From assembly GCF_017876595.1 (NCBI RefSeq), contig NZ_JAGIOG010000001.1, positions 2,852,001-2,916,000 on the forward strand: DNA of 64,000 nucleotides. Reading direction: 5' to 3'. The notes under the pieces were generated by a model, which ran no database searches, was not told the DNA's origin, and was given only the letters and a program-made list of their open reading frames with translations. This stretch comes from Aeromicrobium fastidiosum (GTDB taxonomy: Bacteria > Actinomycetota > Actinomycetes > Propionibacteriales > Nocardioidaceae). A program made the position numbers and the translations under genes. Of the stretch, positions 6,773 to 63,718 are shown one piece after another (position 1 is the first letter of the stretch; the number at the start of each line of letters is the position of its first letter).

Positions 6773-6790
6773 GACCTCTACGCTAGCCCG

Positions 6791-48465: not shown

Positions 48466-49596
48466 ATGGCCACCACCGCAGCTGTTCCGATCGACGTCTT
48501 GACCGACGTCGTTCGTGAACGTGCGCGGGCCGAGGCTCGAGAGGTCGCGTTGATGCTGGAGTTCCGCGATCGTGAGCTGGAACGGATCGAGGCGGAGGCT
48601 GAGTCGCCGATGCGGCGGCTGGTCGAGCGTGGTGCGATCGCGTTGGCGATCGGTGAGGCGATGGGGTTCAGCGAGGGGCAGGTGCAGCACCGGTTGTCGT
48701 TCGCCGACACGGTCCGTGATCACTCGCCGACCACGTGGAACGCCTTCACCGACGGGCGCATCGATTTGGCGCGGGTGCGGGAGATCGGGCACACGATCAG
48801 TCAACTGAAGCGGGCCGAGTCGGTGCACCGCCTCGACGCCAAGGTCGTCGAGTACGCCGAGACCCACACCGTCGCGGAGCTGCGGGCTTGGTTGAAGCGG
48901 TTCGTGCGCAGGGTTGAGGCCGACCTGGCCACAGAACGGGCCGAGGACGAGCGGGCCAAGCGGCACGTGTCCGTGCAGCACGGTGATGACTCGATGGGGT
49001 TCCTGGGCGCGTACCTGCCATCGCATGAGTTGGCTGCTGTAGCTGACCGGCTCCGGAAAGAAGCCCGCCGGCCGGCCGACCCGGGCGATAACCGCACTGT
49101 GGCGCAGCGCGAGGCTGACCTGGTCGCCGCCTGGCTCCTGGGATCGGATGTCGCCGAAGGTGTCATCGATGCGAACATCGGCGTCACCATCGACGCCGAC
49201 GTCCTGGCCGGCGCGAATCCTGGGTTCGCGGAGTCCACCGACGGCACCTGGGGTGTCCCGGCTGCGTGGATCGCAGCGGTCATCGCGTCCGGGTCCACGT
49301 TCTGGCACCGGATCGTCGTCGACCCAGTCAGTGACGACGTCCTGGCCCATGAGTACGTGGGTCGGTTCGCCCCGGACGTCCTCAACATCGCCCTCAGGTT
49401 CTTGTACGGGACGTGTCAGGGCCCGGGATGCGTGGTCCCGGCCGAACGATGCGACATCGACCACCGAGTTCCCTGGCCACACGGCCCGACACGGGGTGAC
49501 AACCTCGGGCCACTGTGCCGAAGACACCACACCTACAAGGGGCATGGGCTCCTGCACTGGAGCACCAGACCCCAGCCGGAACGACCGGCAGCCTGA
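48466..49596 (+). CDS. DUF222 / HNH endonuclease domain protein (13E12 repeat family)
   Basis: The 376-residue protein starts at ATG 48466. Residues 1-270 are DUF222. The HNH motif is intact: CDIDHRVPWPHGPTRGDNLG and PLCRRHHTYKGHG (about 325-357), with both metal-side Cys and the catalytic His. It is therefore likely an active nuclease, unlike the degenerate copy at 4993. Members of this family are dispersed like mobile repeats in actinobacteria. Directly after its stop lies a 115-bp fragment of katG, which suggests that this gene arrived by a recombination event near katG. Confidence 0.9.
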   Translation: MATTAAVPIDVLTDVVRERARAEAREVALMLEFRDRELERIEAEAESPMRRLVERGAIALAIGEAMGFSEGQVQHRLSFADTVRDHSPTTWNAFTDGRIDLARVREIGHTISQLKRAESVHRLDAKVVEYAETHTVAELRAWLKRFVRRVEADLATERAEDERAKRHVSVQHGDDSMGFLGAYLPSHELAAVADRLRKEARRPADPGDNRTVAQREADLVAAWLLGSDVAEGVIDANIGVTIDADVLAGANPGFAESTDGTWGVPAAWIAAVIASGSTFWHRIVVDPVSDDVLAHEYVGRFAPDVLNIALRFLYGTCQGPGCVVPAERCDIDHRVPWPHGPTRGDNLGPLCRRHHTYKGHGLLHWSTRPQPERPAA

Positions 49597-49615
49597 ACAC
49601 GGCGACCCGTGTAGC

Positions 49616-49730
49616 GCTCGTGACGACGGCGTGGGCCTCGGTCGCACCGACGCGACGCAGGAGCAGACCGGCGTCGAGTCGTTCGGGCTGATGGAGCCCA
49701 CGCACGACGGGCTCCGCAACGTCCTCCGCG
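49616..49730 (+). pseudogene. katG fragment with internal deletion
   Basis: Bases 49616-49640 match katG 46989-47013 with one change, and 49640-49730 match katG from 47272 onward at roughly 80 percent ([15 protein letters not shown] versus [15 protein letters not shown]). The roughly 260 katG bases between the two blocks are missing and the reading frame changes at the junction. It is a non-coding relic of a second katG or of a partial duplication. Confidence 0.75.
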
Positions 49731-49751
49731 TTTGCTGCCAACGCGAAGCAC

Positions 49752-50774
49752 CTACTCGCCCAACAGGCCCAGGTCACGAAGGGCGCGAGCCGTGGCCTCC
49801 AGCGCATCGGAGCTCGAGCGCGGAGTCCAGCCCAGGACGGTCCGGGCCTTCTCGCTCGAGACCCGGCGCACCTTGCCCAGCTCGCCGACCATGCCGGCCA
49901 TTCCCGGGTCGGTCCTGGCGGCCTGGTGCACGGCCTCGTCGGGGAGCAGAGGCAGCTCGGGGAGGTCGTGTCCGACCGCGGCACGCAGGATCCGTGCGAC
50001 CTCCTGGAACGTCAGCGGTTCTCCGGTCGAGGCCAAGAACCGCTCGCCGGCGGCCGCCGGGTCGGTCATCGCTCGGAGATGCAGGTCCGCCGCATCGCGG
50101 ACGTCGACCACTGTCGTCGCGAGCCGTGGAACCGCCGGCATGGCGGTCATCATCTGGTGCGCGAGACCGGTCGAGGCCGACAGGTCTGACGTCAGGGGAG
50201 GGCCGAAGATGCCGACGGGGTTGACGACCGCGAGCTCGAGGTCCCCACCCTCCGAGTCCATGAAGTCCCAGGCGGCCCGCTCCGCCAGGGCCTTGGACCT
50301 GATGTAGGCGCTGAGCGGCGCGTCGACGTTGGTCCACGTGTGCTCGTCGAACGCCTCGTCCGTCGGTTCGTGTCCGTAGCCGACGGCGGCGAACGACGAC
50401 GTCATGACGACCCGGTCGACACCGGCGTCACGCGACGCGCGGAGCACTCGCAGCGCGCCTTCGCGAGCGGGGCGGATCACGTCGTCATCGCTGTCGGGCA
50501 TCGCCGGTGGGAATGGGGAGGCCACGTGCAGGACGAAGCGGACTCCCTCGACGGCGTCGTTCCACCCGTCGTCCTCGGACAGGTCGGCCACGACGAGCTG
50601 CAGAGCATCCCCGCTCTGAACCCCGGCCGAGGCCAGCGCTTCACGCAGCTCGTCCTCGCGGCCCAGGTCACGCACCGTGGTCCGTACCCGATGGCCGGAG
50701 CCGAGCAGCTGAGCAATCACGTGAGTGCCGAGGAAGCCAGTGCCTCCTGTGACGAGCACCTGGTCGTCGGTCAT
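49752..50774 (-). CDS. Extended SDR / dihydroflavonol reductase-like NAD(P)-dependent oxidoreductase
   Basis: The 340-residue protein has the Rossmann motif VLVTGGTGFLGTHV (about 6-19), a downstream strand VVMTSSFAAVGYG (about 121-133) and the catalytic YIRSKALAE with Tyr and Lys (about 157-165). The C-terminal substrate domain is typical of dihydroflavonol-4-reductase-like extended SDRs. It reduces a ketone or aldehyde with NADPH. It is the third gene of the TetR / quinone oxidoreductase / SDR operon, 24 bases after the second. Confidence 0.88.
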   Translation of the reverse strand: MTDDQVLVTGGTGFLGTHVIAQLLGSGHRVRTTVRDLGREDELREALASAGVQSGDALQLVVADLSEDDGWNDAVEGVRFVLHVASPFPPAMPDSDDDVIRPAREGALRVLRASRDAGVDRVVMTSSFAAVGYGHEPTDEAFDEHTWTNVDAPLSAYIRSKALAERAAWDFMDSEGGDLELAVVNPVGIFGPPLTSDLSASTGLAHQMMTAMPAVPRLATTVVDVRDAADLHLRAMTDPAAAGERFLASTGEPLTFQEVARILRAAVGHDLPELPLLPDEAVHQAARTDPGMAGMVGELGKVRRVSSEKARTVLGWTPRSSSDALEATARALRDLGLLGE

Positions 50775-50798
50775 GGTGTTTCTCCTCTTCGCATGGAT

Positions 50799-51701
50799 TC
50801 AGTCGAAGGTCAGCACGAGCTTGTCGTGCGTCTCGCCCGACTCGAGCAATCTGTGTGCCTGGGCCGCCTCCGTGATCGGCACTACCCGCCGCCGCTTGAG
50901 GCGCAGTGTCCCGGCGGCGAGCATCGGCACCGTCACGGCGAGCGCGCCCGGCGCACGATCGGGGCCGGGGTGCGACATGAGCGCCCCAGAGGACGCGACC
51001 TCTGGACCGCCGGTCAGGGTGACGACCCTGCTGGGGTCGCCGACAGCCGCGACGGCGGCCGTCAGACCGCCGCGTCCCGCCGCGTCGATGACGGCATCGA
51101 CGCGGCGGGCGACGCGGTCGAAGACGTTGTCGTCGTGTTTCACGAACTCGCCGCCGAGCTCTCGGACGAGCTCTGCATCTCGCTGGCGTGCCGCTCCGAC
51201 GACGCGGACCCCGTTCGCACGGGCAAGCTGCACGATGATCGATCCGACCGAACCTGCAGCACCCAGGACGACCAAGGTCTCTCCCCGTGCGGCGTGGCTC
51301 TGGAGCAAGGTGCCGACCGCTGCCTCGGCGGACGCCGGCAGCGCGGCCGCGTCGATCCAGCTCACCGACGGGGGCTTCGGATGCCAGACCGATGTGCGCA
51401 CCAGCTCGCCGTAACCTCCCTGGTCAGCGAGCAGCGCAGCGACCTCGTCACCCACGGCTGCATCGGCACCGATACCGACGGCCTCGACGACCCCGGCTGC
51501 CTCGAAGCCGAGGACGTCTCCTGCGCGCTGGGGGAAGACGGCGGCCAGGTGACCCGCGCGGATGTGAAGGTCTGTCGGGCCCACCCCGGCCGCCTTGACG
51601 CGGATGACCACCTCGCCCGGCCCTGGCTCAGGGGCCGGCACCTCCTGCCACTCGAGCACGTCGGGCGCACCGAACTCCGTCATCACCATCGCGTGGGACA
51701 T
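50799..51701 (-). CDS. NADP-dependent quinone oxidoreductase-like MDR protein
   Basis: The 300-residue protein begins at ATG 51701, 7 bases after AAGGAG. The GroES-like part (about 1-115) has no zinc Cys set. The nucleotide-binding fold has LVVLGAAGSVGSIIVQLARANG (about 139-160), the AxxGxxG motif of quinone reductase/zeta-crystallin proteins. It should reduce quinones or enones with NADPH. It is flanked by a TetR regulator upstream and an SDR downstream in one operon. Confidence 0.88.
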   Translation of the reverse strand: MSHAMVMTEFGAPDVLEWQEVPAPEPGPGEVVIRVKAAGVGPTDLHIRAGHLAAVFPQRAGDVLGFEAAGVVEAVGIGADAAVGDEVAALLADQGGYGELVRTSVWHPKPPSVSWIDAAALPASAEAAVGTLLQSHAARGETLVVLGAAGSVGSIIVQLARANGVRVVGAARQRDAELVRELGGEFVKHDDNVFDRVARRVDAVIDAAGRGGLTAAVAAVGDPSRVVTLTGGPEVASSGALMSHPGPDRAPGALAVTVPMLAAGTLRLKRRRVVPITEAAQAHRLLESGETHDKLVLTFD

Positions 51702-51715
51702 CTGTTTCTCCTTCG

Positions 51716-52261
51716 TCATGCCAGTAGTCGGTGACACAGGCGTGCCAGGGCTGCGCGCAGCTCGTCGTCGGGCAGTGCGTCGAGCGCGCGAAGCGCTGGT
51801 TTGAGGTCCTGCAGGAAAGCCAGGCCAGCGAGCTGATCGACGGTGGGCTGACGATCGAGGACCGCCGCAGCGAACCGGCCCATGAGCGCGTCCACCCGCT
51901 CCTTGACCTCCGGCTGCGCCCGCACCGCCGGGTCGGCGAAGTCGACCGGGGCGACCGTGCGGTAGGCGGTGACCGCGTTGTCGACATAGGCGGCGATCAT
52001 CCGCTCGCGGCGCACCTCGCTCGAGGCCTCCGACTCGAAGGACTCGAGCAGTGCCTCCAACGCGGAGACCCGCTCGTCCAGGAGCGCATGGAGGATCGCC
52101 GCCTTGGTCTTGAAGTAGTAGTAGACATTCGCCTTCTGGACGCCCATGGCGTCTGCGATGTCCTGCAGCGACGTGCCCGCGAACCCGCGGTCGGCGAACA
52201 GCTGCCGCGCGGTGTTCAGCACCGCCTGCTTGGTGCGCTTGGCCTGCTCGGCTCTCGTCAT
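51716..52261 (-). CDS. TetR-family transcriptional regulator
   Basis: From ATG 52261 the protein is 181 residues. The DNA-binding HTH is ARQLFADRGFAGTSLQDIADAMGVQKANVYYYFKTKAAIL (about 18-57), a standard TetR N-terminus. The rest is the helical ligand-binding domain. It is the first gene of the three-gene operon 52261-49752 and is expected to control it and be relieved by an aldehyde, quinone or drug-like ligand. The AT-rich stretch just upstream (52268-52300) likely holds the promoter and operator. Confidence 0.9.
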   Translation of the reverse strand: MTRAEQAKRTKQAVLNTARQLFADRGFAGTSLQDIADAMGVQKANVYYYFKTKAAILHALLDERVSALEALLESFESEASSEVRRERMIAAYVDNAVTAYRTVAPVDFADPAVRAQPEVKERVDALMGRFAAAVLDRQPTVDQLAGLAFLQDLKPALRALDALPDDELRAALARLCHRLLA

Positions 52262-52367
52262 GGGTCCCACTCTACATTTCATTAGCCAATCGACAAGTGA
52301 AAAGTTCGGACGTGCGCCGTGACCGGGCAGGCAGCAAAGTCGCTCGTGACCCGTGTAGCGTCCGGGC

Positions 52368-54089
52368 GTGGCCAGTACCCGCCGATCGAAGGCCCGCCGA
52401 CGAAGCTCGTCGCCTCGGGGTGGCAAGGCGCCAGCGCCGCTGCCGGTCGCGGGGCCGGGGGAGCGCCTGTGGGTGCTCGACGTCCCGTACGGGACGCAGG
52501 TCGACGGTGCTGCCTGGCACTCGGCGGTCAAGACTCACCTGTTCGTGGGGCGCGCGCTGCCGGTGCACCTCGAGCCGTACGCCCCCACAGCACACACGCT
52601 GGGGCGGTTCATCGAGAACTCCCTCAACCCCGACGACCCGAAGCCAGGCCCTGAGCCGACGGGTGCTCTCGAGCCTCGGAGGATCCAGTTCGAGGCCGCA
52701 GACGCGATCGCCGAACGCGCCGCCGCCGGTGGACGGCAGTTCCTCCTGGCCGACGAGCCGGGCGTGGGCAAGACCATCTCGGCCGTCCTCGGCGCGACGG
52801 CAGTCGGTGACCTTCGCGGTGCCCGGCGCGTTCTCGTCGTCGCCGATCGTCCCGCTGCCATCACGATCGGGCACTGGTGCCGGACGATCACGGCGCTGGG
52901 TGACGGTGGGCTCGAGTGGGTCGTCATCACCTGGGACAGGCTCGACAAGGTCAAGGACCACACCTGGGACGTGATCATCGCCGACGAGGCCCACGCGCTG
53001 CGCCGCACCGAGACCAAGCGGTGGAAGCTCTGGGCGACGATCTCGGGTCACCGGTTGCCGCACGACAAGGCACCGTTCGTCATCGCGACGACCGCGACGC
53101 CCGGGCACACGCCGCTCGAGCTGCCGTACCTCGCTCCCGCCTACGCGCAGGTGCTGGGGGAGCCGATGCGGGAGTGGACGTCTGCGGCGAAACCGGGCCC
53201 CGCGTTCGCCGCCGCGCTCGAGCGTCACGGCGTCGGGGTGGAGCACGGTCGCTACGGCGCGACCTGGACGACCGACCCCGAGCGGCGGGCGGCAGACCTC
53301 CGGCTGGTGCGCGGCTGGCTCGCCGACGAGCGTCCCCCGGCGATGCTGCACCGCGCGGCCTCGTGGGGGCCGGTGCCGATCTCCGGCATGCCGGTGACGC
53401 TCACGCCGATCGAACGGACCGCCTACGAGGCCGAGTGGGGAGAGTTCTGCCGCGAGATGGACCTCGCTCGGCGCGGACGCAGCGTCGCGAAGGGACGAGC
53501 TGCGCTGCTGCGGTTCCGCCAGAAGGCCGGGCTGATCCGGGTCGACTCGACCGTGGCCTGGATCGCCCAGCAGGTGCAGGCTGAGCGGCAGGTCGCGTGC
53601 TCGGTCGAGTTCGTCACGACCGCCGCCGATCCCATCGTCGACCGGTTGCGCGACTCCGGCATCGAGGTGGCGACGATCTACGGCCGCGACCGGTTCGACG
53701 TCGAGGCAGAGCGTCTCCGGTTCCAGACCGGTGGGGCCAAGGTCTGCGTCTTCACCACCGTCGCGTCCATCAGTCTGCACGCCGGCGAGACCCTCGCGGA
53801 CGGCCGACAGGCCAGCACCCAGCCACGAGTCGGCATCTTCCACCAGGCCCGCTTCTCCGGCATCGCCGCACGACAGGTGACCGGCCGCACGCACCGCGAT
53901 CACCAGGTGTCGCCGTGGCACATCGCGTACGCCGAGGGCACCGTCGAGGAACAAGTCGGCAAGGTCATGGTGGAACGGATCGCCGCCGCCTCCGACTCCG
54001 TGGGCAGCGACACCTCCGGCCTCACCGACCTCGCGGCGCTGCTCGGTGCCGACTGGCTGCCGCCCGCAGCGATGACGGCAGACGCCTGA
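52368..54089 (+). CDS. Phage-type SNF2/DEAD superfamily 2 helicase
   Basis: The 573-residue protein begins at GTG 52368 after a basic, Ser-rich leader. Motif I is ADEPGVGKTISAVL (about 128-141), motif II VIIADEAHALRR (about 203-214), motif III VIATTATPGHTP (about 242-253) and motif VI RQVTGRTHRDHQ (about 504-515). This set is of the SNF2-like helicases carried by actinophages and islands. It should translocate on DNA or RNA with ATP. It begins the accessory block that runs to 58.1 kb. A small Cys protein gene follows 37 bases later. Confidence 0.82.
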   Translation: MASTRRSKARRRSSSPRGGKAPAPLPVAGPGERLWVLDVPYGTQVDGAAWHSAVKTHLFVGRALPVHLEPYAPTAHTLGRFIENSLNPDDPKPGPEPTGALEPRRIQFEAADAIAERAAAGGRQFLLADEPGVGKTISAVLGATAVGDLRGARRVLVVADRPAAITIGHWCRTITALGDGGLEWVVITWDRLDKVKDHTWDVIIADEAHALRRTETKRWKLWATISGHRLPHDKAPFVIATTATPGHTPLELPYLAPAYAQVLGEPMREWTSAAKPGPAFAAALERHGVGVEHGRYGATWTTDPERRAADLRLVRGWLADERPPAMLHRAASWGPVPISGMPVTLTPIERTAYEAEWGEFCREMDLARRGRSVAKGRAALLRFRQKAGLIRVDSTVAWIAQQVQAERQVACSVEFVTTAADPIVDRLRDSGIEVATIYGRDRFDVEAERLRFQTGGAKVCVFTTVASISLHAGETLADGRQASTQPRVGIFHQARFSGIAARQVTGRTHRDHQVSPWHIAYAEGTVEEQVGKVMVERIAAASDSVGSDTSGLTDLAALLGADWLPPAAMTADA

Positions 54090-54126
54090 CCAGCGTTCGA
54101 TCGGCCCTCGACTATCGTTCGGGGCG

Positions 54127-54492
54127 ATGATCACTCGACGCGACGCCGCCCAGCGTCTGGACATCCCGCTGGAGATGGCGGCCCGCCACGGACTTCCGGC
54201 GCACCTCACGGAGGACCAACTGAGCGAGATCGAGGGCAACCCGCCACCGTGGCTCGTCCAGTCCCGCACCAACCGCACCAGCAAGAAGCCGGTCTGGGTC
54301 GATCTGGTGTGCGACGTCTGCGGATTCAGCGAGAAGGCCAGGCCCAAGAAGTGGTGGCCGACGTTCACCTACGTCAGCTGCGACTCCCACGACTCGTCCG
54401 AGCTCCCGCCCCCGCGTACCAGCGACCTGCGCGCCGAGGTGCCGGGAGTCGGCAGCAGGTTCATCGGCTGGGTCGACACCACGCTCGACTGA
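54127..54492 (+). CDS. Hypothetical protein with Cys knuckle
   Basis: The 121-residue protein starts at ATG 54127. The N-terminus looks like a helix-turn-helix or Lsr2-like helical segment (TRRDAAQRLDIPLEMAARHGLPAHLTEDQLSEIE). Then WVDLVCDVCGFSEKARPKKWWPTFTYVSCDSH (about 58-89) has CxxC and a later Cys/His that could bind zinc. It follows the helicase gene closely and may be its partner. No family was recognised. Confidence 0.5.
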   Translation: MITRRDAAQRLDIPLEMAARHGLPAHLTEDQLSEIEGNPPPWLVQSRTNRTSKKPVWVDLVCDVCGFSEKARPKKWWPTFTYVSCDSHDSSELPPPRTSDLRAEVPGVGSRFIGWVDTTLD

Positions 54493-54559
54493 GCGATCGT
54501 CGTCCGTCGAGCATGAACCTGACGCGTGCCATGGTCGACGAACGCGCCTCCCTCACCTG

Positions 54560-55105
54560 TTGCAGGACCCTAGCGACGCTCGAGCCCTGGCCGTGCTGCG
54601 CCGCTACTACGCATGGCCGACCGCGACTGCTTCACGGCAGACGACCTCGTGGCCGTCATATTCTTGTCGGTGGACGTGTCGGGCGCAGGCGGCCATCCGG
54701 CTGCTCGATACCCGAGCACAGGCGGTAACGGACCTGCCATCGGTTCTGGGTCCTGGCCGGGATCTCGTCGACGCGGCTGTCGAACTGTGGCCCGCCGACT
54801 GGGCGGGGGTGGAACCTCCACGACGCGCTGCTGACTCTCCCGGTGTCCGACCCACCACGGCGAGCAAGTTGCCGGTCCAAAGGAGGCCTCACCTACGTCC
54901 CATCTACGACTCGGCTCCTAGCCGAACTTATTGGGCCTCATCAACTAGGGAATTCGCTGCGAGCGCATCTGACCGCAGACACCTCCCTCCAAGAGCGCCC
55001 GGTGAGACTGCGACGAAACGCCGATCTCCTTGACAGGTCTGCGCCGTCAGAGTGATCGAAGTCGTGACCTGGATGGGCGGCAAGTACGGGTTCGCGGCTC
55101 TATGA
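54560..55105 (+). pseudogene. DUF6308-like gene broken by several frameshifts
   Basis: Reading across frames restores a sensible order: DARALAVLRRYYAWP, then DRDCFTADDLVAVIFLSVDV, then AQAAIRLLDTRAQAVTDL and GRDLVDAAVELWPADWAG, then LHDALLTLP, GVRPTTASKL and RPHLRPIYDS, then LAELIGPHQLGNSLRAHL and finally VRVIEVVTWMGGKYGFAAL. This matches my memory of the DUF6308 family in length and motif order (ending with a xIxVVxWM strand). At least five frame changes are needed, so the gene is dead. It lies between the helicase block and the STAND nuclease gene. Confidence 0.55.
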
Positions 55106-55335
55106 GCCACGCATCCGAGGCCGGCCTCGTCCAATTCGAGCTTGAGATTCCCAGCGTCGATCTGCTCATCAACGCCGAGGAGAAGTTTGTCCGCGGCTGG
55201 GTTGCCACGTTCCGCAGGCCATCTGTGCCGTCAGCCTCAGTTGGCTCAGCTCCTCTGGTTTGCGCAATGGCTAGCCCGCGCGATTTGGCGCGGTTGGAGC
55301 GTCGAGACCCGTGTGGGCCGCATGCGATGAGATAG
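55102..55335 (+). pseudogene. Possible remnant gene coupled to the DUF6308-like relic
   Basis: ATG 55102 overlaps the TGA of the relic (ATGA). The first 40 codons look genuine (GLVQFELEIPSVDLLINAEE, then KFVRGWVATFRR). After that the sequence is poor in this frame, while another frame reads HLCRQPQLAQLLWFAQWLAR. One frameshift near 55220 would join them. It is probably a decayed small gene just upstream of the STAND nuclease gene. Confidence 0.35.
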
Positions 55336-55342
55336 TGCAACG

Positions 55343-57571
55343 GTGCGAAACTGGCGGACTTTGACCGATATCGATTTTGAAGAGCTTTCGGCGGATTTGC
55401 TTGGTGCGGAGTTTAATACCCGCATTGAGCGTTTCGGCCGAGGAGCGGACGGGGGGATTGACCTCCGCTGGAGAATAGGTTCGGCGAAGTACGGGATTGC
55501 TCAGTGCAAGCATTATCTGGACTCGTCCTTTGGGCAACTCAAAGCATCCGCATCGAAGGAGATCCCGAAGGTTCGCAAGTTAAAACCAGCTCGCTACGTG
55601 TTCGCTACCTCGCGCGAACTTACCGTCCATCAAAAAGGCCAGATCTGTGATCTCTTTGATCCGTGGATGAGGGATCCCAGCGACGTCTTCAGTGGCATGG
55701 ATCTGGATCAGTTGCTGGACAAGAACGAGACGGTCGACCGCAAGCATGTCAAGTTATGGCTAGCGACGGGCGCGCATCTGTTCTGGGCAATGCACCCCGA
55801 GTTGGCCTCGAGATCCGAAGCGTTGCGGGAGCGCATTGATCGAACAATCTCTAACTATGTTGGAATGGGCACATTTGAGCGCGCAAAGAACATTCTCGAA
55901 AAAGAGAAGGTTTGTTTGATTGCGGGGCAGCCTGGCGTTGGGAAAACGGTCTTGGCTCACATGCTTATTGCAGATCATATGCGGCGCGGCTTCGATGTAG
56001 TAGAGGTTTCCGGCGACATCGACGAAGCGTGGACTGCACTTGACCCTAATAGGCCCCAAGTGTTCATTTATGATGACTTCCTAGGTCAACTCGCGTTTTC
56101 TGAAAGGCTTGGGAAGAATGAGGATTCACGGTTGAGCGATTTTGTGGACAAGATTCGTTTTCAGAAATCAACGCGGCTCATCCTTACGACGCGCGAATAC
56201 ATCTTGCGCGACGCCCGGATTGCATACTCGCGCCTTGACGGGATTAGTCGGCGTGGTCGATATATCCTAGAACTGAAGCATTACTCCAGAAACGACCGAG
56301 CTCGGATTCTTTACAATCATGCTTGGCGTTCCGGGCTTAGTCCATCCGCCCTTTCGGAACTCTCGGATGGCGGGTGGAAGCGAATTATCGATCACCCGAA
56401 CTTCAGTCCTAGGTTGGTCGAATACGGCACAAGGCTAGACTGGGATGCTAGCCAGGGATCTTGGCTCGACGCATTCGTGTACGCCCTCGACAACCCTTCG
56501 ACGCTCTGGCGAAGGACATTTGAGAGTCACTTAACGGATCAGGACAGGGCCCTACTTTTCGTTCTCGCGTCGTTTAGTGGGTCCGTCGAGCTGGAAGCGG
56601 TCAAGGTTGCGTACCGAAGTCTCCTCGAACGGCTTTCACTTCCCTTCTCGTCAGCAGCGTTGAAGCGGTCGTTGGAAACGTTGGAGGGGACTTTTATCGC
56701 CGTAAATCAGGACCACCGCGGAGCGGTCGTGCAGTTTCACAATCCCTCCATTGTTGATTTTGTCCTCAATGAGTTGCAGGATGACACGGAGATGCAGCGC
56801 GACCTGATTCGAAGCGCAACTCACTTCGAACAGCTCGAACGTCTGTGGGCATCCCAGACAGCGACTACGACCGTCTCAGATAGGTCTGGCACCAGTGCAT
56901 CCCGGTCGAAAGTGCTTAGCTCTCTCGCCGCCGCTGATTACTCTGCGGCTGCCGATCGCCTATACACTTGCGACCCGCTCGCACCACGCACGAATTACCA
57001 CGGCAGCGCGTCCGAGTCGTTGGAGGACCGTTTCGCATTCGTAGTCAGTCTGCCAGCGGCGTGGCGACCGAAGAAGAAATGGCTGAAGTCGCACGCCGTT
57101 CACCTCCTCTCCCGCTGGACGAACCACAAAGGCGATAAGACGTTGGCGTATGACTTCATCTTCGGGGCGCGCTCCCAAGCGAGGGACTTCTTTCCTCCAG
57201 CTGCGGAGGCTGTGCTTGAGGATTGGCTGAAAGGTGAGCTCTCTGTCACGGAAGACTGGAGGCTCCTCGGTCTATTTCTAGCCTCCGAGGGAACCTATCC
57301 GCTGCCAGGCGATTACGCGGAGCGATTCACCGAGCATGCGGAGGCGGAACTCGAGCGCTGGGATCCTGCGCCGCCGGAGCTATCTACACTTAGATCATTG
57401 AGTGACGATTTCGGTACATATGACCTCGACGCTTACTTCGACGAGGCATCAGAGCGAGAGAACCAGTCAGACGAGGCCACGAGTGAGACCGCACCCGAGT
57501 CCGAGCGAGGGGCGGCCCGGGACCTCAGCGATACTGACTCCGCCATCTCGGCCTATTTTGATCGGTTCTGA
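55343..57571 (+). CDS. Mrr-like nuclease fused to a STAND-type NTPase, predicted antiphage protein
   Basis: The 742-residue protein has two recognisable parts. Residues 1-120 are a restriction-endonuclease-like domain: DFEELSADLL with the first acidic residue (about E14), GRGADGGID (D40) and AQCKHY (Q54/K56), the Mrr form of PD-(D/E)XK. Residues 160-400 are a P-loop NTPase: Walker A GQPGVGKT (195-202), Walker B VFIYDD (240-245) and STRLILTTREYIL as sensor 1, the nSTAND3-like pattern. The C-terminal 340 residues are helical and may be the sensor. The simplest model is that sensing of a phage protein triggers oligomerisation and DNA cleavage. The gene is visibly lower in GC than all neighbours, uses AT-rich codons and has no clear ribosome site before GTG 55343, so it is a recent arrival. 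Confidence 0.8.
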   Translation: MRNWRTLTDIDFEELSADLLGAEFNTRIERFGRGADGGIDLRWRIGSAKYGIAQCKHYLDSSFGQLKASASKEIPKVRKLKPARYVFATSRELTVHQKGQICDLFDPWMRDPSDVFSGMDLDQLLDKNETVDRKHVKLWLATGAHLFWAMHPELASRSEALRERIDRTISNYVGMGTFERAKNILEKEKVCLIAGQPGVGKTVLAHMLIADHMRRGFDVVEVSGDIDEAWTALDPNRPQVFIYDDFLGQLAFSERLGKNEDSRLSDFVDKIRFQKSTRLILTTREYILRDARIAYSRLDGISRRGRYILELKHYSRNDRARILYNHAWRSGLSPSALSELSDGGWKRIIDHPNFSPRLVEYGTRLDWDASQGSWLDAFVYALDNPSTLWRRTFESHLTDQDRALLFVLASFSGSVELEAVKVAYRSLLERLSLPFSSAALKRSLETLEGTFIAVNQDHRGAVVQFHNPSIVDFVLNELQDDTEMQRDLIRSATHFEQLERLWASQTATTTVSDRSGTSASRSKVLSSLAAADYSAAADRLYTCDPLAPRTNYHGSASESLEDRFAFVVSLPAAWRPKKKWLKSHAVHLLSRWTNHKGDKTLAYDFIFGARSQARDFFPPAAEAVLEDWLKGELSVTEDWRLLGLFLASEGTYPLPGDYAERFTEHAEAELERWDPAPPELSTLRSLSDDFGTYDLDAYFDEASERENQSDEATSETAPESERGAARDLSDTDSAISAYFDRF

Positions 57572-57618
57572 CGCCTTCCAGCTGGCGGTCTTGGGCGCCG
57601 TAGCGCCGCTGGATACCG

Positions 57619-58056
57619 TCAGAACGCGACGATCGGCAGCTCGCGGAAGACCACGACGGGTGTGCCTCCCGGCGCGATAGCCGGGATCCGCACCCGGTCG
57701 TGCCGCACCCCGACGCTCACGACGGGCAGGTCCCCGCACGAGCTGAGACCGACGCTGCGGATGTCCCCGGTGTCGGGCGGGCCGCCCATCAGCTGCTCGG
57801 TCATGTACTCGCGATCGGCGTCGGCCGTCTGCTCCGACACCCGCGGACCGCCACGTGTCAGCACGTCGTCGCAGCGCTCGCCGATGGATCTGTGGGCCGT
57901 GGCCCAAGGAGAGTCGGGAGTGGTCGGCGAGGGGGACGCCGATGGCGGCCGAGGATCGTCGCCCAACACCGCGCCCGCCGTGAACACCCCGGCCAGGATC
58001 GCTGCTGACACTGCGAGGCCGATCACCACCGGCTTCAGCTGGATGTCTGGTGTCAC
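57619..58056 (-). CDS. Hypothetical membrane-anchored exported protein
   Basis: From GTG 58056, 6 bases after AAGGGGG, the product is 145 residues: one membrane anchor (about 9-30: VVIGLAVSAAILAGVFTAGAVL), a Ser/Pro-rich spacer and an external domain with two Cys (ERCDDVL and LSSCGDLP). A TTG at 58143 would add a leader with a Cys but lacks a ribosome site. No family was recognised. It converges on the STAND nuclease gene. Confidence 0.5.
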   Translation of the reverse strand: MTPDIQLKPVVIGLAVSAAILAGVFTAGAVLGDDPRPPSASPSPTTPDSPWATAHRSIGERCDDVLTRGGPRVSEQTADADREYMTEQLMGGPPDTGDIRSVGLSSCGDLPVVSVGVRHDRVRIPAIAPGGTPVVVFRELPIVAF

Positions 58057-58269
58057 ACTGCTGCCCCCTTGGGGCACGAGCGAATCGCCGTCGGGCGCCT
58101 TCGTCGTCGCTCGATCGTCCCCGCCGATGGAACAGGCTGTCAAGGAGGATTGATCGGCGCGCGCCGGAAGGCACAGGACTTGTCACGTCGGTGACAAGTT
58201 CTCCACCGCTCGAAGCCCGTCGCAGGTATTAATCACGTCATCGCAGAGAACAGGTCTAGCGTCCGGGTC

Positions 58270-59187
58270 ATGACGATCGCGGGAAGCACTGAGGAACTGC
58301 TGTGGAACGTCTCGCATCAGGCGAGATGGGAGACGGGGCTGACCCGAAATTATGTCAAGGAGATGCACACTGACTTCACTGTCACGGCAGCCACCGAGCA
58401 CGAGGAGACGACCACCGGCAATCTGCTGCGCCATCTTGCGTACTACGGACAGCAGGTAGGAGTGTTGGCAGTGCAGCACACCAAGCGCTTGGAGGGGGGC
58501 TACCAGCGGAAGGGGCGGCAGGTGCATGTCCCAAGCGGTGCGGACCTCGAGCTCGCGGTGGAGATCGGTCCCGGCCTGTGGCTCAATCTGTTGCTGCAGG
58601 CAAAGGCGCTGAAGGTGTCGAAATCCTCAGCAACGTACTCCAGGTGGTCTCCGTCGCAGAACCAGAAGCTGATCGACTGGGCCAACGCTCACGGTCGTGT
58701 CCCGGGGATGTTGCTCTACAACGACCTCTTTCCCCCCTTCGTGAGCTTGGCACCTCCTCAACACTTTCCGGACTACGCGTGTACAGCCTTCGGGGCGTGC
58801 CCGTCGGTCAGTCGGACGCAGTTGGGGGCGTGGGGAACCAATTCCCACTGCGTGGGCCCCGCGATGACGCCGGTGGGTATCAGCATGTGCCTCGACGAGG
58901 CGCTGATGCTGGCCGCGAAGGCGTCGCCATCTCTTCTCCGCGACTTCCACTTCCAGATCGAGCACCTCCTGCATGACGACGAGCACGGCCTCGCTGTCGA
59001 TTCGACGGGTAGGACGCTGGGTGGCCTGGCCACCCCGAACCCACCTGATTGGGCGGCTCGTCTGCTGGCAGCACGGGATGCTCCCGCACCCGAGGTCCTC
59101 GATGTCGACCGGCCGGACATCGACGACCGTCCGGTCGAGGCAGCGGCGCGCGTCTCCGTCGTGATGCCGTTCTTCGATGGACGGTAG
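58270..59187 (+). CDS. DUF6615-like hypothetical protein
   Basis: The 305-residue protein starts at ATG 58270. The central section ELAVEIGPGLWLNLLLQAKALKVSKS...YSRWSPSQNQKLIDWANAHGRVPGMLLYND (about 93-158) matches what I recall of DUF6615. In that family a nuclease-like 'E...W...QAK' core stands ahead of an LI..A....P.Y..YN segment; here the QAK resembles the QxK of restriction-type nucleases. No role is established. The gene is GC-normal and stands alone. Confidence 0.55.
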   Translation: MTIAGSTEELLWNVSHQARWETGLTRNYVKEMHTDFTVTAATEHEETTTGNLLRHLAYYGQQVGVLAVQHTKRLEGGYQRKGRQVHVPSGADLELAVEIGPGLWLNLLLQAKALKVSKSSATYSRWSPSQNQKLIDWANAHGRVPGMLLYNDLFPPFVSLAPPQHFPDYACTAFGACPSVSRTQLGAWGTNSHCVGPAMTPVGISMCLDEALMLAAKASPSLLRDFHFQIEHLLHDDEHGLAVDSTGRTLGGLATPNPPDWAARLLAARDAPAPEVLDVDRPDIDDRPVEAAARVSVVMPFFDGR

Positions 59188-59235
59188 TCGATTGCCAACG
59201 GCGATGAACGTTCGTACTACTTCATACTGAGGCCC

Positions 59236-59829
59236 ATGAGGAAGACCAAGATTGATCGTCGCCTGCTCAAGTCCATGGAGGACGGCCGGATCGCGACGAT
59301 CGTCAGGGACGCTTTCGAGCTCACCTTCACCGACGGGTTCGTGCTCGCGTTGACGGACGACTGGGTGGTTCTGCACTCGCTCGACGGCGTGTACCTCGAC
59401 GGCATCGTGATGCTGCGTCTGCGGGACATCTCACGGGTTCTGTTCCGCGACGACGACGCTTATCACCACCGCGCCATCGCAGCCCTCGGCGAGACGGTCA
59501 CCGAGTTCACCTGCGACGACGACGTGAGCGTGTCCGACCTGCTCGTTCTGGCGTCAGCTCGAGACGGCATCTTCACCTTCTACTGCGAGGTGCTTGAGGA
59601 CGAGCCCCTGATCATCGGCCGACTGATCGAGCTCCGCAAGAAGTCGTTCGACATCCACTACGTCGGACGCGACGGGGAGTGGGCACCTGAGATCGAGCGC
59701 TGGAAGTACCGAGACGTCACCCGCATCGAGGTGGGCGGTCGCTACCTCGACGCGCTCAACCGATTCGCCGACCCGTACTCAGGCGGCGGCACCGAGCCGT
59801 CCGATGATCTCCAAACGGCCGACGCCTGA
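59236..59829 (+). CDS. Hypothetical protein (197 aa)
   Basis: The 197-residue protein from ATG 59236 is rich in beta strands. It appears to hold two copies of one module: FTDGFVLALTDDWVVLHSLDGVYLDGIVMLRLRDISRVLF (about 31-70) and FYCEVLEDEPLIIGRLIELRKKSFDIHYVGRDGEWAPEIERWKYRDVTRIEVGGRY (about 115-170). Each ends in a 'W/L.. RDVTRI' strand typical of Sm-like or PH-like barrels. No family was recognised. It is preceded by the DUF6615-like gene and converges on the reductase gene. Confidence 0.6.
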   Translation: MRKTKIDRRLLKSMEDGRIATIVRDAFELTFTDGFVLALTDDWVVLHSLDGVYLDGIVMLRLRDISRVLFRDDDAYHHRAIAALGETVTEFTCDDDVSVSDLLVLASARDGIFTFYCEVLEDEPLIIGRLIELRKKSFDIHYVGRDGEWAPEIERWKYRDVTRIEVGGRYLDALNRFADPYSGGGTEPSDDLQTADA

Positions 59830-59845
59830 GCCGTCAAGCAGCCAT

Positions 59846-60487
59846 CTACCGCCGGAACGTCACGTGCGTCGTCCCGCTCTCGGCGACCTCGGTCGTCACC
59901 TGGTGGGTGAGCTCGAGCCCCTCGAGTCCGTCCCAGAAGCGGTTGCCGCGCCCCAGCACGATCGGTGCGATCGCGACGTGGAGGTCGTCGACCAGACCGG
60001 CGAGCAAGAAGTCGCGGGCGGTGCTGGCTCCGCCGCCGATACGAACGTCCTGACCGTCGGCGGACGCGACAGCCTCGGCCAGCACGTCCTTGATGGCGCC
60101 GCTGCGGAAGTGGAAGGTTGTGCCGCCCTTGGTCAGCGACGGCCGCGGTGCGGCGTGGGTCAGCACGTAGACCGGCATGTCGAACGGGGGCTCGTCGCCC
60201 CACCAGCCCTCCCAGTCCGGATCGTCCGGGAAGGTGTGCAGGCCGAACATGCCCGCGCCCATGATCTCGGCACCGACGCCCTCGAAGTACGCCCGCGCGT
60301 AGTCGTCCTCGGTGCTGGTCGTCCCTGCTCCGGTGGTGTCGCCGAAGACGCGCTCCTGCATCGTGCGGGTCGACGTGTAGGCCGCCATGAGACGTCCCCA
60401 GTCCTGGCCCATCGGGTTCTCCACATCGTGCCCGCCGGACGTGTAGCCGTCCAGGGAGATGTTGATGTCGGCGCGCACTCGGGTCAT
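59846..60487 (-). CDS. Dihydrofolate reductase/RibD C-terminal domain protein
   Basis: The 213-residue protein is the RibD_C/DHFR-like type common in actinobacteria. It begins MTRVRADINISLDGYTSGG and has the IMGAGMFG segment, PVYVLTHAAPRPSLTKGGTTFHF, then DVRIGGGASTARDFLLAGLVDDLHVAIAPIVLGRG (about 145-180) with the GGA NADPH-binding turn. It should reduce a small substrate with NADPH; the substrate is unknown. It is divergent from the methyltransferase gene with 70 bases between starts. Confidence 0.88.
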   Translation of the reverse strand: MTRVRADINISLDGYTSGGHDVENPMGQDWGRLMAAYTSTRTMQERVFGDTTGAGTTSTEDDYARAYFEGVGAEIMGAGMFGLHTFPDDPDWEGWWGDEPPFDMPVYVLTHAAPRPSLTKGGTTFHFRSGAIKDVLAEAVASADGQDVRIGGGASTARDFLLAGLVDDLHVAIAPIVLGRGNRFWDGLEGLELTHQVTTEVAESGTTHVTFRR

Positions 60488-60557
60488 GTCGGGGTCCTTC
60501 GGCTGGGAGACGCGCCCATTGTGCACCGGGTCGCGGGCACGGCGATACGTTGGCGCC

Positions 60558-61211
60558 ATGACGGATCAGCCCGGGTACGACGCCTTGGCGGATCTGTACG
60601 ACCAGACGTTCCCCGACGGTTACTCGTCCGACGAGGAGCGTGCCGCCGTTGACCGCTTCGACACGGCGCTGGCCGACAGCGGAGCATCCGGACCCGTCGT
60701 CGACGTCGGCTGCGGCACTGGCCACCAAGCGCACGAATTGTCGACAAAGGGGTTCGACGTCATCGGTGTCGACCCGTCCGCCGAGATGCTGGCGCACGCG
60801 CGCCGCCGGTTCCCCGACCTCGCGCTCGTCCAGGACGACGCACGCCTCGGGTCGTTGGGCACCTGGCAGCTCTCCGGCATCCTCGCGAGGTACAGCCTCA
60901 TCCACGTGCCGCCCGAGCAGCTCGCGGACGTCCTTGCCGCATGGGCCATGCGACTGAGGCCGGGCGGCGTCGTGATGACCGCGTTCCAGGCGATCGAGAC
61001 GGATGCCGCGCACGACGTCGAGGAGTTCGACCACGTCGTGGCACCCGCCTGGCGGTGGCGGCCGGACGCGATGTCGGCGATGCTCGCGACCGTCGGCCTC
61101 GCCGAGCGCTGGCGCATGGTCACCCCGCCGGCCGACGGGTTCCGCCGGTTCCCGGAGTGCCACCTGATGCACGTCCGGACATCTCGGCGGGGCGCTGCAC
61201 CAGCTCGATGA
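60558..61211 (+). CDS. Class I SAM-dependent methyltransferase
   Basis: The 217-residue protein starts at ATG 60558. Motif I is VVDVGCGTGHQAHELS (about 47-62), followed by VIGVDPSAEMLAHARRRFP (about 68-86) and QDDARLGSL. The C-terminal half is the substrate lid. The substrate cannot be told. Its last 92 bases overlap the end of the convergent sigma-factor gene, an unusually large overlap. Confidence 0.88.
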   Translation: MTDQPGYDALADLYDQTFPDGYSSDEERAAVDRFDTALADSGASGPVVDVGCGTGHQAHELSTKGFDVIGVDPSAEMLAHARRRFPDLALVQDDARLGSLGTWQLSGILARYSLIHVPPEQLADVLAAWAMRLRPGGVVMTAFQAIETDAAHDVEEFDHVVAPAWRWRPDAMSAMLATVGLAERWRMVTPPADGFRRFPECHLMHVRTSRRGAAPAR

Positions 61212-61707
61212 GCAACGGGTGGGCCGCCAAGGCACGACGCGCCCGGTGCAGTCGGACCCGCGCCGTCCCTGGGCGCATGCCCACGACCGACGCGGCGTCG
61301 GCGATCGACAGCTGCTCCCACTCGGTGAGTCGGATGAGCTCCCGATCGGGCTCCTTGAGCGATGCGAGCGCCTCACGCACCGCCCGCACCGACGGAGCCC
61401 CATCGGCGGACGCGTCGCCTGCCCGGCCGTCGTGGACGCGGACGCGCTCGTGCTCGGCCACACGTCGCCGGGACGTCGTTCGCTCCGCGGCCAGGAGCAG
61501 CCTTCGTGCCGTCCCGAACAGCCAGGCACGCCGCAGCTCCGCTGCCGGAAGGTCATTCATGCGGCGCAGTGCGATGACGAACACCTCGCCGAGGAGGTCC
61601 GCGCCCGACTCGCCGGCCCGGCGACAGAGGTACCCGTGGATCTCGCGTGCGTGCCGGCGGTACAGCTCCTCGACGTCCGCCGGTGTCGCGGGTCGCGGAG
61701 TCACCAT
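61120..61707 (-). CDS. ECF-type RNA polymerase sigma factor
   Basis: From ATG 61707 the product is 195 residues. Region 2 is VEELYRRHAREIHGYLCRRAGESGADLLGEVFVIALRRMNDLPAAELRRAWLFGTARRLL (about 13-72). Region 4 is LASLKEPDRELIRLTEWEQLSIADAASVVGMRPGTARVRLHRARRAL (about 112-158). The final 30 residues, after region 4, run across the end of the methyltransferase gene and are not part of the sigma fold. The ATG overlaps the stop of the upstream membrane-protein gene by 7 bases, so the pair is coupled. Confidence 0.85.
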   Translation of the reverse strand: MVTPRPATPADVEELYRRHAREIHGYLCRRAGESGADLLGEVFVIALRRMNDLPAAELRRAWLFGTARRLLLAAERTTSRRRVAEHERVRVHDGRAGDASADGAPSVRAVREALASLKEPDRELIRLTEWEQLSIADAASVVGMRPGTARVRLHRARRALAAHPLLIELVQRPAEMSGRASGGTPGTGGTRRPAG

Positions 61708-62450
61708 CGTGGGTCGTAGCCGAGCTCGGGGGCGAGCCCGGGCATGCAGGCTTGGCCGTTGAGCGCGGCTGCGGCCGCGGACGGCTGCTCCGAACGGACT
61801 GCCCGCTCGAGGACGGGGAGCCACGAGGCTTCGGACTCGTTCGCTAGCTCGTCGTCGGTGTCCGTGATCGACGGCCAGGTGCGAGCGCTGAGGATCACCG
61901 CCGCGGCCTCGTCCTCGGCGGGCTCGTCACCTGTTCGCAGGGCCGCGGCCCACCGGTCGGTCCACGAGCAGACGGCGTGACTGGCTATCCACAGGCGCAG
62001 CGCCCCCATGGAGACGACCGTGTCCTCGTCGGAGAGGTCACCGACCTCCCAGCTCAGGGCATTGGCTCGCGTCCACAGCGAAGGGAAGTGGATGTCGCGC
62101 GTTGCGCCGTCGAGGACGGTCGCGAAGTCGGGAGCTGCCGGGTCGATCCGCTCCCCGGGACCGCCGAGCTCGAGATCCTCCGCGTCGGACGCGAACCTCC
62201 CGGTGTGCGCGCTCAGCACATTCGCGGTTGCAGCACCGGCGACACCCACAGCCCCGACCGCGACGATGCCGGCGACGACCGTCCTCCAGCGCCGGGTGCG
62301 CCGCACCACTGGCTGACGTCCGGCGCACTCAATCTGCTGCCACAGCTCTGATTCATGCTCGGGGGTCAGCTGCGGCACCTCGGGTGCCGCGGCCCGAAGC
62401 GCTGGGCCGTGGTCGTCCGTCCAGCCGTGATTCGTGTCGTCGTGTGTCAT
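61701..62450 (-). CDS. Membrane protein coupled to the sigma factor, possible anti-sigma factor
   Basis: The 249-residue product (ATG 62450) has a cytosolic N-terminus of about 55 residues, one membrane helix (about 61-81: WRTVVAGIVAVGAVGVAGAATA) and an external domain with two Cys. The topology is that of membrane anti-sigma factors, but there is no recognisable zinc (HxxxCxxC) anti-sigma motif. The order is also reversed, since anti-sigma genes usually follow their sigma gene. The 7-base overlap (ATGGTGA) shows the two are translated together. Confidence 0.55.
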   Translation of the reverse strand: MTHDDTNHGWTDDHGPALRAAAPEVPQLTPEHESELWQQIECAGRQPVVRRTRRWRTVVAGIVAVGAVGVAGAATANVLSAHTGRFASDAEDLELGGPGERIDPAAPDFATVLDGATRDIHFPSLWTRANALSWEVGDLSDEDTVVSMGALRLWIASHAVCSWTDRWAAALRTGDEPAEDEAAAVILSARTWPSITDTDDELANESEASWLPVLERAVRSEQPSAAAAALNGQACMPGLAPELGYDPRW

Positions 62451-62503
62451 CGTCGCTCCCAGATCGTGCCTCAACCTAGAAGTGTCGACGCGTTACATGC
62501 ACA

Positions 62504-62830
62504 TCACCCGATGCGCAGCTCGGTGATCAGCCCGTCGGCCAGCGTGAACCGGTACGCCAGGTCGGCCACGCCGCCGGGAAAGTTGCCCTCGATCCGGATG
62601 CGGGCGACCCAGTGGTCGTCGTCGACGCGCTCGGAGCCGGTCAGCTCGGTCGTGTAGGTGTACTCGCTCGCGGCGGTGCGCAGGAAGCGGTCGATCTCGT
62701 CGGTGCCGCGGAACGTGCTGCCCTGGTCGGTGACCACGGCGTCGGGCGCGAGGGTGACGAGGGTGGCCTCGACGTCGTCGGCAGCGTGGGCGGTCAGGAA
62801 GGTGCTGATGGTGTCAGGAAGAGTTGTCAT
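62504..62830 (-). CDS. SnoaL-like / NTF2-fold protein
   Basis: The 108-residue protein from ATG 62830 reads TISTFLTAHAADDVEATLVTLAPDAVVTDQGSTFRGTDEIDRFLRTAASEYTYTTELTGSERVDDDHWVARIRIEGNFPGGVADLAYRFTLADGLITELRIG, the standard cone-shaped NTF2/SnoaL fold. Such proteins are isomerases, hydrolases or ligand binders. It is transcribed divergently from a MerR regulator with a shared operator, so it is probably the target of that regulator. Confidence 0.85.
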   Translation of the reverse strand: MTTLPDTISTFLTAHAADDVEATLVTLAPDAVVTDQGSTFRGTDEIDRFLRTAASEYTYTTELTGSERVDDDHWVARIRIEGNFPGGVADLAYRFTLADGLITELRIG

Positions 62831-62875
62831 GCCATCACCCTGTGGCGTCCCGGCGGGGGAGACGCAAGCACTGGA

Positions 62876-62892
62876 CTCTCCCCCGGGGAGAG
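62876..62892 (+). promoter_or_regulatory. MerR-type palindromic operator
   Basis: CTCTCCCC-C-GGGGAGAG is a perfect inverted repeat with 8-bp arms, 16 bases before the MerR GTG. TGGACT just left of it could be a -35 hexamer. The long spacer with a central palindrome is the usual MerR/TipA promoter layout. It lies between the divergent SnoaL-like and MerR genes. Confidence 0.6.
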
Positions 62893-62908
62893 GGTGCACA
62901 CTGGGCGC

Positions 62909-63718
62909 GTGCTGGCGATCGGCGAGTTCTCACGGTTCACCCACCTCAGCGTGCGCACGCTGCGCCGGTATCACGACGCCGGCCTGCTCGTGCCCGAGAC
63001 GGTCGACGACGCGACGGGCTATCGCTACTACAGCCCCGACCAGATCCCGACCGCCCAGGTCATCCACCGGCTCCGCGAGCTCGAGGTGCCGCTGTCGGAC
63101 GTCCAGCACATCCTGCGCACACCCGATCCGGACGTCCGCGCCGCGCTCGTCGCAGAGCACCTGCAGCGTCTGGAGTCGCAGCTCGACCGCACCCGGGCGG
63201 CGGTCTCGTCCCTGCGGCGGCTGCTCACCCCCGCCCCGGCACCGCTGCAGGTCGAGCTGCGCTCGGTGCCCGCCACGACGGTCGCCGCCGTCGAGGACGA
63301 CGTGGCGCTCGACGACGTCCTCGCCTGGTACGCCGGCGCGATGGCCGAGCTCGACGCCGTCGTCACGGACCGCGCGGGAGCACCCGGTGGTCTCTTCGAC
63401 AACGCCCTGTTCGAGAACGGCCACGGCCACGTGCTCGTGTACCGACCCACGTCCGAGGCTGCGCACGTCGGCCGCGTCCGCCCCGTCACGCTCCCCGCGG
63501 TCGAGCTGGCGGTAACCACGCACGTGGGCAACCATGACGACATCGAGGTCACCTACGGCGAGCTCGGCTCGTGGGTCGTCGCCAACGCGCTCGCTGTCTC
63601 CGGGCCGGTGCGCGAGACGTACCTCGTGGGGCCGCGCGACACCGCCGACGCATCGGCCTGGCGCACCGAGATCGGGTGGCCCGTCTTCCGGGTCTCGGCA
63701 ACCGCCTCCGACGAGTAG
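62909..63718 (+). CDS. MerR-family transcriptional regulator with GyrI-like effector domain
   Basis: From GTG 62909 the product is 269 residues. The MerR HTH is AIGEFSRFTHLSVRTLRRYHDAGLLVPETVDDATGYRYYSPDQI (about 3-46), followed by a dimerisation helix (about 75-108). The C-terminal 150 residues resemble the GyrI/SOUL-like small-molecule-binding domain of BmrR/TipA-type regulators (LQVELRSVPATTVAAVEDDVALDD..., TYLVGPRDTADASAWRTEIGWPV). It should activate its promoter on binding a lipophilic ligand. It probably controls itself and the divergent SnoaL-like gene. Confidence 0.9.
   Translation: MLAIGEFSRFTHLSVRTLRRYHDAGLLVPETVDDATGYRYYSPDQIPTAQVIHRLRELEVPLSDVQHILRTPDPDVRAALVAEHLQRLESQLDRTRAAVSSLRRLLTPAPAPLQVELRSVPATTVAAVEDDVALDDVLAWYAGAMAELDAVVTDRAGAPGGLFDNALFENGHGHVLVYRPTSEAAHVGRVRPVTLPAVELAVTTHVGNHDDIEVTYGELGSWVVANALAVSGPVRETYLVGPRDTADASAWRTEIGWPVFRVSATASDE

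Follow-up and report, generated by a model that had tools for sequence, protein, structure and literature searches.

An intact PDC-S73 gene of Aeromicrobium fastidiosum predicted to encode a single-protein, NLR-like anti-phage defence system

The 64,000 nt stretch of Aeromicrobium fastidiosum DNA analysed here (the window) contains an intact gene for a protein of 742 residues, in which a Mrr-like nuclease is joined to a STAND NTPase and a helical C-terminus. The gene is an intact member of PDC-S73, a catalogued and widespread candidate family of nuclease-NLRs, and we consider it likely to be a single-protein, NLR-like anti-phage defence system. This reading was favored by the match to PDC-S73, by the order of the domains and the invariant residues, by a C-terminus that diverges far more than the core, by structural similarity to Avs4 and Avs5, by the scattered occurrence of the gene, by the defence-rich neighbourhoods of its relatives and by the low GC content. 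Counted against it were the window copy having no catalogued defence neighbour, the low TM-scores, and the PDC-S73 match ending at residue 506.

The preliminary description had proposed a candidate single-gene antiphage system that might be new. Its domain reading and the defence class were supported in kind, by the invariant nuclease and NTPase residues, the presence of Avs4 and Avs5 among the first five structural matches, the match to a PADLOC candidate family, and the defence-rich neighbourhoods of relatives. The novelty did not hold up: the family is already catalogued and widespread, and the available text of PMC9122126 describes the Mrr_cat-STAND type of fusion.

The gene and the domains of its protein

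The open reading frame starts with GTG and has a single stop codon at its end (Table 1). On the opposite strand, the matching frame was not open and contained many stops. A chance open frame was ruled out by the 742 codons and by 23 invariant columns (M1 included) in 70 aligned rows. The GC content of the gene was 55.4% compared to 68.0% for the window, which bears out the lower GC noted before, and GC3 was 62.5% compared to 88.7% in the upstream helicase gene. Both values are as expected of DNA from elsewhere. The gene is isolated, with a DUF6308 remnant upstream and an ORF on the opposite strand downstream. The inverted repeat over the stop codon could act as a terminator for both convergent transcripts.

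Table 1. Features of the gene, its protein and the surrounding site (window coordinates)
Feature	Position	Strand	Basis
CDS, Mrr-like nuclease + nSTAND3 NTPase + helical C-terminus, PDC-S73 family	55343..57571	+	ORF, Pfam, PADLOC, invariant residues
PD-(D/E)xK nuclease domain, residues 1-110 (E13, D40, Q54, K56)	55343..55672	+	Mrr_cat in 11/14 members; 4 residues invariant in 70/70 rows; model
Helical linker, residues 111-171	55673..55855	+	PADLOC, model; first part (to residue 149-157) in the module common to pAgo-associated TIR proteins
STAND NTPase nucleotide-binding domain, residues 172-333 (Walker A K201, Walker B D244/D245, TTR with R284)	55856..56341	+	PF20720, invariant columns, model
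HD1 + winged-helix-like STAND part, residues 334-481 (P356/R357; NPSxxD 467-472)	56342..56785	+	model secondary structure
Fast-evolving helical C-terminal domain, presumed sensor, residues 482-727	56786..57523	+	12.2% mean identity to relatives; leave-one-out HMM; models
Conserved C-terminal helix, residues 728-742 (consensus IxxLFxxL; F739 in ≥90% of rows)	57524..57568	+	alignment, model
Inverted repeat over stop codon, 18-nt arms, 83% complementary	57565..57625	+	putative terminator between convergent ORFs
Frame-broken DUF6308 remnant (two frames, 54560-55033 and 54613-54834)	54560..55055	+	family scan of neighbours
Conserved helicase-like gene, left flank	52368..54089	+	homology to congener G401 continues to 54500
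RibD_C gene, right flank common to window and G401	59846..60559	-	family scan, blastn

The Pfam family nSTAND3 (PF20720) matched residues 172-328 with 162 bits (E 1.2e-47; curated cut-off 27.2). The match to Mrr_cat (residues 6-63) reached 20 bits, just below the cut-off of 21. In an alignment of 14 members (A1), Mrr_cat was found at E ≤ 0.01 in 11 members, the window copy among them, and nSTAND3 in all 14. A larger alignment (A2) comprised 70 rows: the window copy, two viral contigs and 67 of the 80 genome loci described below, all 67 being single ORFs of 727-799 residues. The other 13 genome loci were left out as short or cut off, interrupted, long, or near-duplicate. Residues E13, D40, Q54, K56, K201, D244, D245 and R284 were invariant in all rows of A2. 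The E...D...QxK motif of Mrr-like PD-(D/E)xK nucleases is therefore intact. The preliminary description had read this motif as E14/D40/Q54-K56; the last three residues were correct, and in the first helix it is E13, not E14, that is the conserved acid. The P-loop STAND NTPase (GQPGVGKT, FIYDD, K201) was found as described there, with the P-loop beginning at residue 195 and FIYDD at residue 241.

The AlphaFold2 model of the whole protein had a mean pLDDT of 83.1 and a pTM of 0.69. It showed an alpha/beta N-terminal domain followed by the helical linker, the NTPase, a helical domain, a winged-helix-like part (two strands, 452-465) and the helical C-terminus. The pLDDT of the nuclease domain was mostly above 90 and about 70 for residues 31-40. 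For residues 334-481, we took the names HD1 and winged helix from the general anatomy of STAND proteins. Since the model places about residues 334-481 in the STAND module, the presumed sensor extends over about residues 482-742 (about 260 residues). The C-terminus of about 340 residues proposed earlier was helical in the model, and the presumed sensor within it is shorter.

Averaged over the relatives, identity to the window protein was 39.8% for the nuclease and 36.4% for the nucleotide-binding domain, 26-28% for the linker, HD1 and winged helix, and 12.7% for residues 482-742. A conserved core with a fast-changing C-terminus is the pattern that a receptor of diverse phage proteins should show; it fits such a role and does not prove it. 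An unrelated, swapped-in sensor was ruled out by a leave-one-out HMM made from the C-termini of 68 relatives found in this analysis (not PADLOC's own PDC-S73 set), with the window copy and its closest relative (L055) excluded. The window C-terminus scored 28.1 bits (E 8.8e-7, a value that may be somewhat flattering as the window copy took part in the underlying alignment), compared to 3.8 bits for the best of 200 shuffles.

Modelled alone, residues 480-742 were again helical (pLDDT 77.6). A fold search of the PDB with the C-terminus only gave no match at E ≤ 0.001; the best match (E 0.24) and those following were generic helical repeats, designed and natural, TPR and HAT included. The view that the C-terminus does not look like the TPR sensor of Avs1-4 was thus weakly borne out. 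A profile match of residues 510-691 to the designed repeat protein 5h7c (E 3.7e-6) was read as helical-repeat composition only. The last helix (732-740) was modelled with high confidence after a low-confidence stretch (713-726). Given this and the conservation of F739, the helix is probably docked against the remainder of the protein.

Relatives, their neighbourhoods and the genomic site

The PADLOC model of PDC-S73 (PDLC05079) matched the window protein with E 4.2e-129 and also matched all 14 members of A1. PDC-S73 is listed as a single-gene defence candidate with a profile length of 752, compared to the 742 residues of the window protein. The best-scoring match stretch (residues 4-506) stops short of the C-terminus of the window copy, which was matched beyond residue 506 by the profile of the relatives found here. 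According to the accessible text of PMC12988326, the PDC families are products of a guilt-by-embedding study, and most of them await validation. A literature search that covered few subscription journals and no bioRxiv preprints yielded no experimental study of PDC-S73.

Scans with the single sequence found no relatives in the viral and genome contig collections (viral_contigs, genome_contigs). The alignment-based scan confirmed at least 97 relatives in genome_contigs, of which 80 loci were kept; they were spread over many bacterial phyla and one archaeon. It also found two loci in viral_contigs. The tree members fell into 10 labelled phylum-level groups. The nearest neighbour of the window copy in the tree was a Streptomyces protein (L055, 48% core identity), joined next by the copy of the congener G214 (SH-aLRT 99 and 95). 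In the genus, broad matches were found in 2 of 49 genomes, the window's own included; a third match covered 30 residues of the P-loop. Among the genomes of the class, the PDC-S73 model matched 33 of 296, and at least three of these matches were broad (G000, G214 and G675; three candidates per genome were scored). The others were short P-loop stretches and, in two genomes, short nuclease stretches. These weak matches were not counted, since the model also matched 7 of 14 control genomes.

Matches were found in 48 plasmid records and in two phage records. Of the 40 plasmid records listed, 33 covered 61-70% of the query, 11 of these at 22-24% identity. The other seven covered only the N-terminal 18-28% and were annotated as TIR-domain protein (five) or restriction endonuclease (one), or were unannotated (one).

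Some relatives deviated from the common form. On a Priestia megaterium plasmid (L052:5992-8329), nuclease and ATPase are annotated as two adjacent ORFs, representing either a split gene or a frameshift. The relative in genome G364 (L003:1489-3876) has an in-frame TAA within the matched stretch and is probably a decayed copy. A Paenibacillus relative (L133:7974-11432) has 1,152 residues, about 400 more than most, and may carry a different or extended C-terminus.

We compared the neighbours of the relatives with control ORFs of the same genomes. For 20 of the 80 genome loci, the six nearest ORFs were set against six control ORFs (120 ORFs per set). The control stretches lay at 20% or 80% of the relative-bearing contig, away from the relative, and were chosen before their content was seen. 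Of 30 loci opened for this test, 10 were left out: seven had no relative-bearing contig or one shorter than about 90 kb, and three (G694, G700 and G704) were dropped to keep 20. A rule of our own, in place of a gene finder, was used to call the ORFs; from the seven first chosen at each locus (140 per set), the seventh was discarded. At E ≤ 1e-20, the neighbour ORFs matched 152 PADLOC families and the control ORFs 6; these numbers count families rather than genes, with many redundant GajA models among them, 25 of the 152 being listed by name. The nearest ORF was PADLOC-positive at 1e-10 in 8 of 20 loci, with AbiEi, SoFic, pAgo, PD-T4-3, BstA, mad3, PDC-S57 and PD-T7-5 as best families. At 1e-20 it was positive in 7 of 20, whereas among the control ORFs no more than 6 of 120 were (Fisher p about 0.0004, with the nearest ORFs set against all six ORFs per control place). 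The mad3 match is one of these seven, and mad3 also occurred once among the controls. On 13 plasmid records, for which there was no control set, the annotated neighbours included SIR2, HEPN, AbiEii, Fic, HipA and NACHT proteins, integrases and transposases.

Two loci showed particular neighbours. In L077, a PDC-S73 relative (7992-10283) is directly preceded on the same strand by a pAgo gene (6383-7933, + strand; PADLOC class I, E 9.4e-139); the nuclease module of PDC-S73 itself resembles pAgo-associated TIR proteins. On the plasmid pPAES01 of Prosthecochloris (L043), positions 944-5479, just upstream of the relative at 5995-8298, carry the Avd and reverse transcriptase genes of a diversity-generating retroelement together with two genes of the formylglycine-generating-enzyme type.

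For the window copy, seven neighbour ORFs were scanned against PADLOC at E ≤ 0.01. No catalogued defence gene was found among them; of the seven, only the helicase gave matches, and all of these were weak (best E 8.6e-6). The preliminary description had placed the gene among decayed genes, which is true for the frame-broken DUF6308 gene just upstream; the other scanned neighbours are open ORFs, several of them with no family match. The helicase gene is conserved with 83-86% identity in 17 fetched stretches of congeners, of which all but L168, which breaks off shortly after the gene, could be judged. In 15 of these 16 nothing was shared directly behind the helicase (blastn, E ≤ 1e-8). In the remaining one, G401, the homology extends to 54500 and is found again from 59846, and between these points lie other genes over about 4.7 kb: a DUF222-type gene (like that at 48466-49596 of the window), an SDR, a TetR regulator and an ORF with no family match, none of them a defence gene. 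As G401 has both flanks and other genes between them, the gene is part of a replaceable segment of about 5.3 kb. The site is variable; a defence hotspot of the genus was not supported, as 15 of 16 stretches share nothing there and G401 has no defence gene. The copy in G214 has other surroundings, as its 14-kb stretch shares nothing with window positions 48000-64000 at E ≤ 1e-8. Copies related to the DUF222 gene of the window (48466-49596, + strand) are numerous in the genus, including several within the same genome (best 84-86% DNA identity).

Proposed mode of action and alternative explanations

In the proposed mode of action, the protein would be inactive at rest, with nucleotide held by the STAND module. 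During infection, the fast-evolving helical C-terminus (residues 482-742) would bind a conserved protein that the phage produces. Nucleotide exchange and oligomerisation of the STAND module would follow, and the oligomer would bring the Mrr-like nuclease domains together. The active nuclease would cut phage and host DNA, and the infection would be aborted.

We weighed this defence switch against three other explanations. The nuclease is Mrr-related and relatives are often annotated as restriction endonuclease, as would be the case if the protein performed a type IV-like restriction. The nuclease would then directly recognise modified or foreign DNA, the NTPase would serve as translocase or loader, and there would be no protein trigger. 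We regard this as improbable: its NTPase belongs to the STAND type (PF20720) and is no known translocase, divergence is greatest in the C-terminus, as expected for a receptor of diverse proteins, and Avs4 and Avs5 are among the top structural matches. The nuclease switch could also be aimed at incoming plasmids or transposons and not mainly at phages, as part of plasmid exclusion or a general conflict between mobile elements. This would agree with the plasmid records that carry relatives and with 2 of 13 fetched plasmid relatives adjoining plasmid replication genes. Some of the nearest neighbours of relatives are known anti-phage genes or are named after phage screens (AbiEi, pAgo, PD-T4-3, PD-T7-5), and the structural kin Avs4 and Avs5 act on phages, as stated in the accessible part of PMC12931631. 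These points argue against plasmids as the main target, and we give this explanation little weight.

There is also a small chance that the window copy was acquired recently, is heading for decay and does nothing in its host. Its GC and GC3 are far from those of the surroundings, a decayed DUF6308 gene lies just upstream, and the gene is rare in the genus. Against this, 742 codons have stayed open, the family-invariant residues are kept, and the model is confident through the core.

A more far-reaching version of the defence reading is possible, if doubtful: PDC-S73 might be a separate, very widespread clade of nuclease-NLRs outside Avs1-5, in which the compact sensor of about 260 residues recognises one conserved phage protein that would be new as a trigger, and the C-terminal helix (IxxLFxxL) acts as an off-state latch. 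If the defence switch works as proposed, the protein belongs to a widespread group of nuclease-NLR receptors, for which we found no experimental tests, and would add a further receptor to those known to sense phage proteins. With a conserved latch-like helix and a conserved core set against a fast-changing sensor, the discovery of the trigger would be directly testable. The single locus is an ordinary, well-preserved example; the family would be of more interest if a new phage trigger were found.

Comparison with known systems

Antiviral STAND proteins consist of an effector, a STAND module and a highly variable C-terminal sensor, as described in the available text of PMC10907252, and the accessible part of PMC8195603 lists REase among the effectors of STAND-type conflict systems. 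The models and the Foldseek results showed that the window protein has the architecture of effector, STAND module and helical C-terminus of Avs (AVAST types 1-5). The preliminary description had proposed a structure comparison as a check of novelty; the best solved match of the whole model was the described defence clade Avs4, with Avs5 in third place. Foldseek gave 51 PDB matches at E ≤ 0.001. The first was Avs4 with phage portal (8dgf_B, E 2.5e-8), followed by SAMD9, EfAvs5 (9jap_A, E 4.9e-7, rank 3) and an AVAST5 filament (9nc9_D, E 2.9e-6, rank 5); two Avs4 chains were within the first five. The top 20 also included an Apaf-1 apoptosome, NRC2, RPP1 and Roq1, and likewise archaeal ORC2, yeast ORC and Clp ATPases. 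TM-scores by query length were 0.18-0.35 for the first five and 0.27-0.35 for Avs4 and Avs5. Because of these low TM-scores and the matching ORC, Clp and AAA+ chains, we understand the likeness to Avs4 and Avs5 as one of shared domains and their order and not of one superposable shape.

AAA+ chains filled the VIA-align list (residues 145-464, Z up to 15.1), and the ends of the protein were barely covered. In a viral structure library, the best match was an NLR-named siphovirus protein (E 8e-7), the others being mostly AAA+ proteins. A phmmer search against PDB sequences gave weak matches only, to the P-loop region plus one enzyme. PADLOC, a library that presumably includes Avs models, gave none of them among its matches up to E ≤ 1.

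The Avs4 alignment comprised 829 columns, gaps included. At 13% identity and a TM-score by query length of 0.35, Avs4, the STAND receptor of the phage portal, differs from the window protein in its far larger sensor, with a chain of more than 1,500 residues. Avs1-Avs4 are described with nuclease effectors in the accessible text of PMC12931631, which also assigns an nSTAND3 NTPase and variable helical C-termini to Avs5. The solved chains of Avs5 (PDB 9jap and 9nc9) share the Pfam NTPase of the window protein and have a similar length (833 and 768 residues). In contrast to the nuclease of the window protein, the effector of Avs5 is a SIR2 domain. The proteins of P4-satellite hotspots described in the available text of PMC9122126, with N-terminal Mrr_cat, STAND NTPase and C-terminal repeats, resemble the window protein in domain order.

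The nuclease and linker of the window protein matched the pAgo-associated families Aga_TIR-PNTD1-PNTD2 (E 6.9e-32, residues 5-149) and Aga_REase-TIR-PNTD1-PNTD2 (E 5.6e-24, residues 6-157). These two models were matched by 14 and 13 of the 14 members of A1. Judging by the family names, the nuclease module is attached there to TIR and Argonaute-partner domains in place of a STAND NTPase. One effector module thus appears to be coupled to two sensing systems, and a nuclease module common to PDC-S73 and Argonaute-associated TIR proteins illustrates the swapping of effectors between defence systems.
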